From a virus, in IMG/VR virus record IMGVR_UViG_3300021373_002079, positions 1 to 25,839 of that record: DNA of 25,839 bases. One strand, written 5' to 3'. Positions 16,022 to 23,525 of the stretch are shown here, one piece after another (within the stretch, counting starts at the first letter, position 1; the number at the start of each line of letters is the position of its first letter). The notes under the pieces were generated by a model, which saw only the letters and a program-made list of their open reading frames with translations, was not told the origin of the DNA and did no database searches. A program made the position numbers and the translations under genes.

Positions 16022-16282
16022 TCAATTCGTCCGGCCTGTTCCTAAACTCCTCACGAAGTTTTTTTTTTCAGTAGCGAATTTATCTTTAAGCTTGATAACA
16101 TATCCTGGGCTAAGACCTACAGTCGTGCAAACAAATTGAAAATTAGGATTGTCTTCATTGAACCAAGCTACAGCTTGAGCTTTGACATAAGGATTATAAC
16201 CTTGGTCTCCGGACATACCTAAGGCGTCTCGCATGGCTTGGGATATTACTTCAATATAAAGCTGTGTTTCGGGTATATACAT
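16022..16282 (-). CDS. Small HTH-like protein (86 aa)
   Basis: Chain MYIPETQLYIEVISQAMRDA, then AVAWFNEDNPNFQFVCTTVG and LSPGYVIKLKDKF. The 'A..W......F..VC...GL.p..V' pattern is a recurring phage helix-turn-helix signature near terminase and regulator genes. It is the first gene after the 22-bp palindrome array, so it is the best candidate for control by it. GGAG and AAGGA precede the ATG at 16282. It could act as a transcription regulator; target unknown. Confidence 0.6.
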   Translation of the reverse strand: MYIPETQLYIEVISQAMRDALGMSGDQGYNPYVKAQAVAWFNEDNPNFQFVCTTVGLSPGYVIKLKDKFATEKKNFVRSLGTGRTN

Positions 16283-16402
16283 TCCTTAATCTCCATACCC
16301 AATTCATAGACACAATTCTCGACTATGTAGTTATAGTAACACATAAGTTCGGTTATAACGGTGAACGTTAAGTGAACAGTGCTGTAGAATGGTATTAATT
16401 TT
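16283..16402. promoter_or_regulatory. Leader between palindrome array and 86-aa gene
   Basis: No gene supported. Contains a direct repeat GTGAAC (about 16362 and 16373, 11 bp apart) and -10-like TATAAC/TATAAT-type hexamers on the minus strand. A minus-strand promoter for the 86-aa gene and TerS region is likely here, close to the palindrome array. A single open frame across the array (to 16464) is probably accidental. Confidence 0.4.
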
Positions 16403-16468
16403 TGATACTGACAGTATGGTTTTTTAATACTGACGGTATTGATTATTAATACTGACGGTATCAATTTT
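16403..16468. repeat. Three palindromic repeats with exact 22-bp period
   Basis: The core ATACTGACGGTAT (ATACTGACAGTAT in the first) occurs at 16405-16417, 16427-16439 and 16449-16461. Each core has ATAC/GTAT arms around five bases, and the starts are exactly 22 bp apart, two helical turns. A half-core (GGTAT at about 16391) extends the period one step to the left. The spacers are AT-rich. This is the form of a replication iteron or a cooperative operator. It lies between the DUF1376-type replication operon and the 86-aa HTH gene and ends on the stop codon of the 54-aa gene. Confidence 0.8.
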
Positions 16469-16632
16469 TAATATCGCTTTCTTTTAAGATCATTTAACCA
16501 TAATTCATAATCAATCTTATGAACTTGATCTTTTATTAATTGATATTGTGAACGTTGCTCTTTAGTTAATTTTTGATGATTTTGTAATATTATCTTTAAT
16601 TGATTGTAAATTTTAAGAAAGTTTACTTCCAT
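16468..16632 (-). CDS. Small helical protein (54 aa)
   Basis: A short frame of 55 codons. The ATG at 16632 overlaps the end of the 161-aa gene by 10 bp. The chain MEVNFLKIYNQLKIILQNHQ, KLTKEQRSQYQLIKDQVHKI ends YELWLNDLKRKRY. It is helical and basic at the C-terminus. Its stop touches the palindrome array. Function unknown; translational coupling to the previous gene supports it being real. Confidence 0.55.
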   Translation of the reverse strand: MEVNFLKIYNQLKIILQNHQKLTKEQRSQYQLIKDQVHKIDYELWLNDLKRKRY

Positions 16633-17108
16633 AAATCTACTAATACTTGGAGTCCTTCTCGAAAGTCTTTCATATACTTTTTAGCTGGCAAATTATCAAC
16701 TAAGACGTCAATTATTATTGGAGCGTATTTTTTTAATGAGTTGTTGGCTCTCTTAATCTCAGCCTGACAATCATTTACTGAGTTCATTGTGGCCTGTATA
16801 TCAGCTTGTATATGATCTTTGACTAATACAGCTGTCATTCTTTGATTATATCCCGCTAAATGCCATAGGTTCTGATACTTATAGCCAGCGGTAAACATTA
16901 AATCGTTGAGATCCTTGTCTTTAGGATAAAGTAAATTCTTTCTATAATACCAATGAAGTATGTCTTTGTATTTAATTTCGAGTCTTTTTGGCTCTTTAGC
17001 TTGTTCAACGTACTCAACTTCTTGATAATCTGGGAGTCGATAAAACTTTCCATTTTCTCCCCGGATAATGTCCTGACCCCCATAATCTGAGATCTTAGCC
17101 TTACCCAT
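16623..17108 (-). CDS. Unknown early-operon protein (161 aa)
   Basis: The ATG at 17108 (MGKAKISDYGGQDIIRG) overlaps the upstream gene's stop by 8 bp (ATGGGTAA) and is preferred to the longer frame starting at 17207. Domain signs: a short N-terminal beta region (GENGKFYRLPDYQEVEYVEQ), then IKYKDILHWYYRKNLLYPKD and a C-terminal helical part (VNDCQAEIKRANNSLKKYAP). No catalytic motif is obvious. It belongs to the early operon with the DUF1376-like protein and could be a replication accessory. Not recognised. Confidence 0.55.
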   Translation of the reverse strand: MGKAKISDYGGQDIIRGENGKFYRLPDYQEVEYVEQAKEPKRLEIKYKDILHWYYRKNLLYPKDKDLNDLMFTAGYKYQNLWHLAGYNQRMTAVLVKDHIQADIQATMNSVNDCQAEIKRANNSLKKYAPIIIDVLVDNLPAKKYMKDFREGLQVLVDLWK

Positions 17109-17439
17109 TATTTTTAACCTTAGTAAGCCATAAATCTCTATTACGTTTGTAGTAAACAATATCTGCTTCAACAGCGTTTGAAGTTTTGGAATACATATCG
17201 TAAACAATATCTCTTACAGTAGATCTATTTAAACCATGAGCTAGTGCTAGTTCATTAAAGGTTCTGTTATCTCTAGATACTTGAATGAAAAAATCTAAAT
17301 TACGATTGATCTTAGCTGTGTCTTTTGCCCTGATAGGATAATCTTTTAATATTTGTGATATACGATCCCTGTTTAATGTCCAATAGAACCTAGATCTTCC
17401 TAAAGGATTACGGATTGATTTTGCCAAATTTTTTCTCAC
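17101..17439 (-). CDS. HTH DNA-binding protein (112 aa)
   Basis: A basic N-terminus (RKNLAKSIRNPLGRSRFYW) is followed by a helix-turn-helix: FNELALAHGLNRSTVRDIVY (about residues 60-79) is a textbook tri-helix with A, G and SxV at the turn. It probably starts at the GTG at 17439, giving a 32-bp overlap with the previous gene. It resembles small phage activators or sigma-like switch proteins in the early operon. It could regulate the late operon downstream. Exact family not determined. Confidence 0.55.
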   Translation of the reverse strand: MRKNLAKSIRNPLGRSRFYWTLNRDRISQILKDYPIRAKDTAKINRNLDFFIQVSRDNRTFNELALAHGLNRSTVRDIVYDMYSKTSNAVEADIVYYKRNRDLWLTKVKNNG

Positions 17440-18181
17440 ATCTATTGATCATCTCTGACTGAGCGCTTATCCACCAACGACCTATTTTTTTTGCGTGTTC
17501 CCAATTGCTTCTATCCATGTTTTCTTCAAACTCTTTTTGCTCTTCAGGACTTGGTTCAGTAACTACATTGTCCAGATAACATTCTCCATTTAACCAAGTA
17601 GCCGGGTGTTTTGAAAATTTTTGGTTTACTTCAAAGTGTTCGTTGTAAAGCCTTTGTAGTTCAACGGGTTTATTCTTCCATTCTTCCGGGAGCTTATTAA
17701 AAGCTTTACGAGCATGACCAACACCAACTTTGTTTTTGACGTCTTTCCAAAACAATTCAAAATTAATTGGCTGAGGTTTTTTTATATTATTATTATTAGA
17801 AGAAGAGGAAGAAGAAGAAGAAGAGAGAGGTTCCTTAGAGGTTACCTCGAGGCTACCTAAAGGTTCGCTCTCGGTTAGCTTTATCTTTTTTTGTCTTAAT
17901 GAATTTTCTTTTTGTTTTACTATTTGATCTTGTAATTCTTTATGATGATAAAAGCCATTCTCTAAAACAAAGAAGGTAGATATGATATAATGAAACTTCG
18001 TATCATCACACTTAGACTTTATTCTGTTAATAACACCTTCGGATAGCCCGGTTTCTCTTTCACACCAATATTTAAGCTTTAGATGCTGATATATACCAAG
18101 CTCTTCAAAGTCTAGCTCTAGTGTCTGAGCTAGTGTATTTGTGGCATATTCTTTATACCAAGGTAAATCTGTTGAACTCAT
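17408..18181 (-). CDS. DUF1376-type replication protein / replisome organiser-like (257 aa)
   Basis: N-terminal domain (residues 1-110) follows the DUF1376 pattern: LPWYKEYATNTLAQTLELDF, EELGIYQHLKLKYWCERETG, then VLENGFYHHKELQDQIVKQK. The linker is a Ser run followed by Asn (SSSSSSSSSNNNN, about 121-133). The C-terminal region FWKDVKNKVGVGHARKAFNK and HPATWLNGECYLD is the tail found in phage replication initiator/organiser proteins. It likely recruits the host helicase to the phage origin. It overlaps the upstream gene by 4 bp (ATGA). The Ser/Asn runs are encoded by triplet repeats that can vary in length without a frameshift. Confidence 0.7.
   Translation of the reverse strand: MSSTDLPWYKEYATNTLAQTLELDFEELGIYQHLKLKYWCERETGLSEGVINRIKSKCDDTKFHYIISTFFVLENGFYHHKELQDQIVKQKENSLRQKKIKLTESEPLGSLEVTSKEPLSSSSSSSSSNNNNIKKPQPINFELFWKDVKNKVGVGHARKAFNKLPEEWKNKPVELQRLYNEHFEVNQKFSKHPATWLNGECYLDNVVTEPSPEEQKEFEENMDRSNWEHAKKIGRWWISAQSEMINRCEKKFGKINP
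17785..17826. repeat. Triplet microsatellite (ATT)n/(GAA)n
   Basis: Runs of ATT then GAA triplets on the + strand, which encode the Asn and Ser tracts on the minus strand. Repeat length changes would alter only the linker. The boundary is approximate. Confidence 0.6.
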
Positions 18182-18402
18182 AATAGCTTTATTCCCCCTT
18201 TAGATGCGCTTATGAAATCGACCCAACCCTTAGCTCTGAGCTTGTAAAGGAGCTTATGGATATTGCTCTTAACACACCCATATTCACTAGCTAATTCCTC
18301 ATAAGTGGGGGAAACACCGAGAGACAGCCTATTTCTGAGAATAAGGAGTAGCTTATTTTGACACTTGCTTAAAACGATTTTCTCATTTTCTAAGCCAGTC
18401 AA
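18178..18402 (-). CDS. Winged-helix DNA-binding protein, LexA-N-like (74 aa)
   Basis: A single winged helix-turn-helix: QNKLLLILRNRLSLGVSPTY, EELASEYGCVKSNIHKLLYK, LRAKGWVDFISASKGGIKLL. The 'p.Ty.eLa...g...s.i...l..L..kGwi......rgi.l' layout is that of the LexA N-terminal or replication-regulator wHTH. No peptidase part. It starts at TTG (18402) with GGGG upstream. It is the first gene on the minus early operon, divergent from the CI-like repressor, the position of a Cro-type regulator. Confidence 0.65.
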   Translation of the reverse strand: MTGLENEKIVLSKCQNKLLLILRNRLSLGVSPTYEELASEYGCVKSNIHKLLYKLRAKGWVDFISASKGGIKLL

Positions 18403-18531
18403 TGGGTGTTCCCCACCAGTGGAAAGCTTGCGGAGGAAAAATTGGGTTTTTTGCTTTCCATGATTTGATTAGATTTATTTTGATTTTTTTTTCAATAGTA
18501 TAATTTTTCTACAAAGAAATGGTTGAACGCT
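18403..18531. promoter_or_regulatory. Divergent promoter-operator region of the genetic switch
   Basis: Separates the repressor (+) from the wHTH gene (-). A perfect TATAAT sits at 18499-18504 on +, placing transcription start about 20 bases before the repressor ATG. A minus-strand TTGAAA lies at 18490-18495, so the two promoters probably overlap. An 8-bp inverted repeat TGGAAAGC (18420-18427) / GCTTTCCA (18453-18460) spaced 25 bp covers the minus-strand start region and is a good operator candidate. Confidence 0.6.
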
Positions 18532-19287
18532 ATGAGAAATAGTGTAACTTTATGGGATAATTATTTAGGGGATATAGTGAACGGTAAAAAGAAATTAGTT
18601 GAGATTTTGGTTTCAAAACAGCATGACTCTAGAAAGTCATGGAACCAGATTTGTAAAATTGTTGGCCTGTCTCCTTCAGTTGTATCTAAATTTTTACAAA
18701 CAAAAAGTGATATTTCAGTAGAATCTTTAAACAAACTATTAAGATATTTTAATGTTGACATCTATCATTCTGCTACAAATAGCCTTGGAGATAGAAAATT
18801 TGACTCCACAACTAAAGTTCCTGTAATTGGTATTTCATGCGATAATGGGGTAGTTCATCACCCTAGATTATCTGATCCAACTGATATGTTGCGATCAAAT
18901 ATATGGCGTGGATATCACTGTATTTTAGTCAAACATGATCCAATATATGATTATCAATGTCTTTTTGATCCTCAAAATGACTTCGCTAAAAAACCAGAGG
19001 TCATCGCTAATCAATTTCTTTATTCCTTACTAAAGTATAAACCTCAAAAAGATACACCCGTAACTCATTATAAAGATGAAGTATTTGTTTTTTGTAATGC
19101 AAAATATGTACTTAATAAAAAACAAGTTATTTGCATTGATGAAGTAACAAAAACAGAGATAAATATAGACATTAAAAACGTTTTTAATTGGTACAATATT
19201 GAAGCTTTATTTGCTCCTAGAACTTTTAAATCAACAAGAATAAATTCTTTGCACGATCAAGTTTATAATCAGCCTTCTAACTCTTAA
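18532..19287 (+). CDS. CI-like repressor with degenerate C-terminal domain (251 aa)
   Basis: N-terminal HTH: KSWNQICKIVGLSPSVVSKF, LQTKSDISVESLNKLLRYFN (XRE-like). A linker leads to VPVIGISCDNGVVHHPRLSD, which resembles the region that opens S24/LexA-type repressor C-domains. However, there is no visible 'GxSM' Ser motif or matching Lys, so RecA-driven self-cleavage looks lost. A TTG 9 bases upstream (18523) could start it; neither start has a Shine-Dalgarno, so a short-leader mRNA is likely. It lies at the head of the plus-strand recombination/integration block, a plausible lysogeny maintenance gene. Confidence 0.65.
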   Translation: MRNSVTLWDNYLGDIVNGKKKLVEILVSKQHDSRKSWNQICKIVGLSPSVVSKFLQTKSDISVESLNKLLRYFNVDIYHSATNSLGDRKFDSTTKVPVIGISCDNGVVHHPRLSDPTDMLRSNIWRGYHCILVKHDPIYDYQCLFDPQNDFAKKPEVIANQFLYSLLKYKPQKDTPVTHYKDEVFVFCNAKYVLNKKQVICIDEVTKTEINIDIKNVFNWYNIEALFAPRTFKSTRINSLHDQVYNQPSNS

Positions 19288-19388: not shown

Positions 19389-19408
19389 TAGCAAAACGAC
19401 GGAGAAAA
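19389..19408 (+). promoter_or_regulatory. Conserved leader motif, copy 1 (with ribosome site)
   Basis: TAGCAAAACGACGGAGAAAA, containing GGAG 6-7 bases before the ATG of a 24-aa ORF. Two near-identical copies are at 23353 and 23499 (one A/G difference in the shared 19 bases). Conservation beyond GGAG suggests a defined 5' untranslated element rather than just a ribosome site. Confidence 0.75.
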
Positions 19409-22780: not shown

Positions 22781-22855
22781 GCTGGTGTAACTCATTGGTA
22801 GAGTACGTCCTTGGTAAGGACGGAGTAGGAAGTTCGATTCTTCTCACCAGCACCA
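22781..22855 (+). tRNA. tRNA-Thr (anticodon GGT), with encoded CCA
   Basis: 75 nt: 7-bp acceptor GCTGGTG/CACCAGC; D arm ACTC/GAGT; anticodon stem CGTCC/GGACG with loop TTGGTAA (anticodon GGT, reading ACC/ACT); 5-nt variable loop; T arm GGAAG/CTTCT with one G-T pair and loop TTCGATT; discriminator A; CCA at 22853-22855. All arms pair. It begins at the base after the integrase stop. A complete copy, not only a 3' half, makes a phage-borne tRNA and attP both likely. Confidence 0.9.
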
Positions 22856-23352: not shown

Positions 23353-23371
23353 TAGCAAAACAACGGAGAAA
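23353..23371 (+). promoter_or_regulatory. Conserved leader motif, copy 2
   Basis: TAGCAAAACAACGGAGAAA, four bases (23371-23374 region) before the ATG of a 32-aa membrane ORF. TACTTT (23342-23347) is a weak -10-like hexamer 5 bases upstream. Shares 18 of 19 bases with copy 1 and all 19 with copy 3. Confidence 0.75.
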
Positions 23372-23479: not shown

Positions 23480-23525
23480 GCCGGGATAAAATCCAAAGTA
23501 GCAAAACAACGGAGAAAATCCCGGC
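23480..23525 (+). ncRNA. Leader motif copy 3 inside a hairpin, no ORF (possible small RNA)
   Basis: GCCGGGAT (23480-23487) pairs perfectly with ATCCCGGC (23518-23525), with a further 3-bp TCC/GGA pairing inside; the loop carries the third TAGCAAAACAACGGAGAAAA (23499-23518). A TAAAAT at 23487-23492 could be the -10, giving a start at the motif. No start codon follows at a useful distance, and the late-operon 3' end lies just beyond on the opposite strand. It could be a regulatory RNA, a decoy of the leader, or a two-way terminator. Confidence 0.4.

Follow-up and report, generated by a model that had tools for sequence, protein, structure and literature searches.

The window analysed here is the entire 25.8-kb IMG/VR record of an uncultured marine temperate phage. 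It encodes an integrase, a tRNA-Thr, a DUF1376 replication protein and a set of late genes on the minus strand, and its large terminase is approximately 49% identical to those of HTVC010P-type pelagiphages. The tRNA-Thr gene (GGT; 22781-22855) is complete and directly follows the integrase gene, making it a probable attachment site; its best match among sampled alphaproteobacteria was 87%, and a search of Rfam over the window returned only this tRNA. We also observed that AGCAAAACRACGGAGAAA is present three times on the plus strand (19390-19407, 23354-23371 and 23500-23517), with 0.01 occurrences expected. The same element occurs three times in one close relative (G002) and in no other fetched relative, and is possibly a shared leader or ribosome-binding element.

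Between the replication and late genes, the minus strand carries p74 (18178-18402), the gene for the DUF1376/primosomal replication protein (17408-18181), p166 (16623-17108), p54 (16468-16632) and p86 (16022-16282). The p74 product is a LexA-DBD-like winged helix that lacks a peptidase domain. p54 is a small gene, absent in G002, which occupies a variable slot on the promoter side of p166. The p86 gene is the first of the late unit and is conserved in all relatives, and its product is helical with a possible HTH. Divergent from p74, the plus strand encodes a 254-aa CI-like HTH regulator (HTH_3/Cro-C1-type; 18523-19287), for which no match was found among INPHARED phages. An inverted repeat, TGGAAAGC...GCTTTCCA, lies between p74 and this repressor gene (18420-18460). 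In G007-G011, the arms differ (ATGGTGGTA...TACCACCAT) and yet remain complementary, so the repeat may be a covarying RNA hairpin.

The p166 product is a remote relative of DUF6456/GafZ and a candidate late activator or antiterminator. An alignment of p166 and its homologs matched DUF6456 by hhalign at 95.5% (E 1.4e-8, 109 columns), compared with at most 0.4% when columns were shuffled and 53.8% when the window's clade was used alone. The window p166 had no direct match in Pfam, and a p166 profile search of genome_contigs returned no match. Similarly, Foldseek searches of the PDB with AlphaFold models of p86 and p166, which were of moderate confidence, gave no significant match. DUF6456 is an annotation carried by GafA homologs (PMC9638019), and GafZ, an antiterminator that has its palindrome between the -35 and -10 elements, resembles the GafA C-terminal domain (PMC11150451). 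The presence of p166 in a temperate phage is a possible link to the regulators of gene transfer agents.

A 22-bp palindromic array upstream of a predicted late promoter

We compared the window with 11 close relatives, IMG/VR contigs (G001-G011) that encode p86 and have the window's gene order. In all 11, the DNA preceding p86 contains CACTGTTCACNTNAYGTTCA, an extended -10 element of the form TGNTAYTAT and the leader ACATAGTCRAGAATTGTG. The extended -10 of the window is TGTTACTAT (16333-16341, minus strand), and no -35 element is recognisable. A direct repeat, GTTCA-N6-GTTCA, is present as GTTCACTTAACGTTCA at 16362-16377 on the minus strand (GTTC-N7-GTTC, 16363-16377). This GTTCA box has a single occurrence in the window. 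Because of their conservation and position, we infer that the box, the -10 element and the leader constitute a late promoter, with the start of the late transcript predicted near 16326. At the 5' end of this transcript (16290-16330), a TAGTCGA-type stem (AGTCG/CGACT, TAGTC/GACTA) was noted in several lineages (also L133, L144 and L145); the hairpin in the window was not better than those in shuffles, and it was clearer in two distant lineages.

Directly upstream of this predicted promoter, within the 185-bp gap that separates p54 from p86, lies an array of palindromes; downstream of the promoter are p86 and the genes for terminase, portal and capsid. The original prediction described three cores starting exactly 22 bp apart, with a fourth half-site one period away, and the sequence confirmed both. 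Core 1, ATACTGACAGTAT (16405-16417), is a perfect dyad, while cores 2 and 3, both ATACTGACGGTAT (16427-16439 and 16449-16461), each have one broken pair. The additional half-site is on the promoter-proximal side at 16391-16396 and reads GGTATT on the plus strand and AATACC on the late strand. A degenerate promoter-distal half-site may be present at 16471-16476 (AATATC on the plus strand). With respect to the predicted start, the box is centred at about -44, the dyad of the proximal half-site at -63, and cores 1, 2 and 3 at approximately -85, -107 and -129.

The 22-bp array is real and far above chance expectation. It received the top Tandem Repeats Finder score in the window (103, with the next row at 47). 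The 26-bp pattern of core plus spacer, allowing up to three mismatches, occurred three times in the window and not at all in 100 shuffles. A palindrome-and-repeat score for the array was 43 at a period of 22 and did not exceed 32 at any other period; in simulation, none of 40 Markov genomes scored above 32 and none of 2,000 local Markov sequences above 33. No terminator-like site was found at the array, and promoter-like matches around it were no more numerous than in shuffles.

Tandem repetition of a palindrome places two dyads in every period, ATAC-N5-GTAT and GTAT-N9-ATAC, the latter centred on an A-tract, and the sequence fits either one as the putative bound dyad. The ATAC and GTAT letters were almost invariant over the 15 cores compared. 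The palindromic sites of 13-15 bp, repeated with a period of 22 bp, all lie on one helix face upstream of the predicted promoter. The array thereby has the tandem dyads of 13-17 bp with approximately two-turn spacing that are expected of a CI/Cro-type operator array, and the same-face spacing of the sites fits cooperative binding.

Distribution of the array and the GTTCA box

Among the close relatives, the array was found only in G002 and G004, as degenerate copies, and in G003, with fewer copies. A different gene takes its place in G001, and nothing is found there in G005-G011; the array is also absent from G115 and from all relatives that lack the GTTCA box. Between the window and G002, the ATAC/GTAT half-sites are unchanged, and the differences fall in the core centres, with a few in the spacers. 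The proximal half-site, one 22-bp period from the core array, is retained in G002 and G003, and as AATACTG in a distant lineage (the G114 lineage). The variable slot that separates p166 from the late promoter is a hot spot for small inserted genes, which differ among G001, L142/L143, L146 and L136. In G001, and in L142/L143, which belong to the G114 lineage, the array is gone and an inserted foreign gene fills the slot, with the box and the -10 element kept.

The distant lineage emerged from a paired-dyad scan, which identified marine phages with a 22-bp period (L056/L107 and L058) and later L118 (G114 lineage). Protein identity to the window is 25-32% in this lineage; over the aligned parts, p166 is 30%, p86 25% and p74 40% identical. 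The homologs of p166, p86 and p74 are arranged as in the window, with a GTTCA-N6-GTTCA box after the array. The array is located at the same place as in the window, within 1 bp relative to the -10 element, and yet it is inverted with respect to the promoter: the 22-bp repeat units of the two lineages are identical at 44 of 51 positions when inverted versus 34 of 51 in direct orientation. The nearest core is 79 bp from the -10 element in the window's clade and 78 bp in the G114 lineage, and the corresponding distances for the box are 39 bp and 40 bp; leader length differs by 18 bp. Thus, the array has a fixed position relative to a conserved promoter in two distant lineages. Since the inversion keeps the palindromic cores in phase, the constraint appears to act on the position of the cores. 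The array label requires at least three changes on the tree by parsimony, and the similarity of the arrays may therefore be due in part to transfer of the repeat.

An exact-pattern scan of viral_contigs with RGTAT halves had no match. Scanning genome_contigs for the array yielded 52 matches, all of them in unrelated bacteria and archaea. By eye, these were chance matches, simple tandem repeats or tandem operators of a TetR-like kind, and no prophage carrying these genes was recognised among them. A scan for the shared repeat unit found the array in no phages beyond the two lineages. The original prediction made its reading depend on finding the phasing in homologous phages. It is seen in some close relatives and in one distant lineage, and others are without it.

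Each genome with a GTTCA box has a single copy, and the box goes together with the LexA-DBD-like p74/p93. p74 was present in all box-bearing contigs in which the region is covered, and the box-less relatives G014, G116, L134, L135, L141 and L146 are without it; several of these box-less relatives have a TTGACA-type -35 in place of the box. On the p166 tree, the match between box and p74 amounts to a single change, so support for the link is real but modest. The phage p74/p93 protein may be the ligand of the box, because the box is found only in phages carrying p74. Host LexA is a possible ligand as well, because GTTC-N7-GTTC, the exact arrangement of the conserved box at 16363-16377, is the alphaproteobacterial LexA box (PMC3323433, PMC8565304).

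Possible functions of the array

From its sequence and position, the array is probably an accessory upstream operator array of the late promoter that serves a putative dimeric regulator. It would be accessory because phages can lose the array and keep the promoter. The original prediction had proposed a master operator between the early and late genes. The location was borne out, as the array is just upstream of the conserved predicted late promoter, but the word master found no support, because the array is one accessory element at one promoter, is absent in many relatives and has no copy at the repressor and early divergent region. Apart from an antisense frame, no gene was specific to the array-bearing phages. 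Compared with the CI-like repressor, a host protein or one of the conserved phage proteins p74, p86 and p166 is the likelier candidate for the array binder.

Binding by the CI-like repressor (18523-19287) would mean that a lambda-like operator triplet has been displaced to the late promoter, where it would silence the late genes in the lysogen. The genome does encode an HTH_3/Cro-C1-type repressor, and the dyads are operator-like with near-lambda spacing. Furthermore, a dyad almost identical to that of the array, AATACTGGCGGTATT / AATACCGCTAGTATT, is present in approximately 40 to 50 enterobacterial prophage contigs, and one example of the AATACTGGCGGTATT-bearing contigs aligns to the pL region of phi80/HK639. 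Lambdoid CI/Cro arrays, such as those of phi80 (JX871397) at pL/OL and of HK639-like prophages, likewise consist of two to three tandem palindromes near a phage promoter. However, the phi80/HK639-type sites have 25-bp spacing at the early promoter pL, whereas the array has 22-bp spacing at a late promoter, and the annotated operators of phi80 itself are unlike the array dyad in sequence. CI/Cro sites would be expected at the promoter of the repressor itself or at the early divergent promoter, and no array-like site is present there (18402-18540); the divergent region of relatives also lacks such a dyad. In addition, G001 has the most similar repressor (83%) and yet no array, and the G114 lineage shares the core though its repressor is marginally similar (26%, E 0.003). 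We therefore consider repressor binding to be improbable. Because the near-identical AATACTGGCGGTATT is found at pL, where phi80 has CI operators, the dyad type may be that of a regulator site, in keeping with an operator role for the array. Similar dyads occur both near lambdoid pL and, by eye, in TetR-like tandem sites of unrelated bacteria, so the type of dyad is not enough to identify the binder.

The variety of small genes in the slot and the inversion of the array in one lineage could also suggest that the repeats are neutral or mobile elements without regulatory function in a region prone to insertion. This seems quite unlikely, given that the half-site letters are kept while the core centres drift, that the distance from core to -10 is kept within 1 bp between lineages and that scans found the array in no other phage family.

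A second role put forward in the original prediction, that of iterons of the phage replication origin, which might be bound by the DUF1376/primosomal protein or p74, did not hold up and is very unlikely. Lambda-type iterons are likewise phased palindromes, the array is approximately 1 kb from the initiator gene, and the GC skew changes sign near 18 kb. However, the skew minimum near 18 kb coincides with the switch in gene strand and is not at 16.4 kb. Origin iterons should be kept wherever the initiator is shared, but the array is missing from relatives in which the DUF1376 and p74 genes are intact: G001, G005-G011 and G115 retain the replication genes where covered. Moreover, the cores keep a constant distance from the late promoter, and the spacers are inverted in one lineage.

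The iterons of the lambda origin lie inside the initiator gene O and adjoin an AT-rich region. They resemble the array in being phased palindromic repeats in a phage genome, but the array, approximately 1 kb from the initiator gene, does not share their placement within that gene next to an AT-rich region for unwinding. Repeats inside the DUF1376 gene fit this arrangement instead. Iterons of 11 bp, of the CCTTTAGGTRACCTYRAGGTDACCTC type, are found there at 17837-17869 (minus strand), followed by a polypyrimidine tract and an AT-rich stretch to approximately 17775, and these features are conserved in 8 of 8 phages compared. Same-codon conservation at the iterons, polypyrimidine tract and AT-rich stretch was 0.83-0.87, compared with 0.52 for the whole DUF1376 gene (permutation value for the iteron codons, 0.024). 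The segment 17775-17869 is likely the replication origin, and the internal repeats would fit a lambda-type origin inside the initiator gene. The origin candidate is thus shifted away from the array to another place.

Finally, it is highly unlikely that the array is merely intrinsically curved DNA, with two-turn-phased A-tracts aiding the promoter without a bound protein: A/T-rich spacers of 7-9 bp do recur every 22 bp, but the predicted curvature at the array is only at the 83rd percentile of the window (dinucleotide wedge model), and conservation is stronger in the half-sites than in the spacers.

A model for late transcription and its relation to known systems

In the favoured reading, a dimeric HTH-type protein that recognizes the ATAC...GTAT half-sites would occupy the repeats side by side. 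The bound array would then modulate transcription of the packaging and structural genes, with activation slightly more likely than repression given that the sites are upstream at class-I-like positions. Late firing would also require a protein at the GTTCA box, either the LexA-like p74 or host LexA, and p166, as a GafZ-like factor, would act on RNA polymerase.

The array appears to be real, conserved and regulatory, and of an ordinary type; what is newly recognised is the predicted late promoter. Little is known about how uncultured marine temperate phages control their late genes, and the present comparison separates the constant parts of such a promoter (box and -10) from a part that comes and goes (the array). 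A late promoter tied to a GafZ-like gene also has implications for the ancestry of gene transfer agent regulators. A more far-reaching proposal is that of a three-part late switch, new in phages, in which the protease-less LexA-fold protein p74/p93 occupies a box that replaces the -35, p166 causes antitermination and the 22-bp array recruits a further regulator. We regard this proposal as doubtful; if true, phage late switches of this sort would be the source from which GafA/GafZ control of gene transfer agents arose.

The CcGTA promoter PgtaT involves GafY, IHF and GafZ, with one GafY element at -123 to -113 (PMC11150451). Like PgtaT and the RcGTA GafA system, the predicted phage promoter precedes packaging and structural genes, has a putative regulator site upstream near -120, has a poor -35 and is associated with a gene, p166, whose product is a remote relative of the GafZ/DUF6456 regulators. 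In contrast to PgtaT, where one GafY element is combined with IHF and with a GafZ palindrome between the -35 and -10, the phage has a multi-copy 22-bp array, and no GafY homolog came to notice in it. It also differs from the CcGTA/RcGTA system in that p166 is a stand-alone gene.
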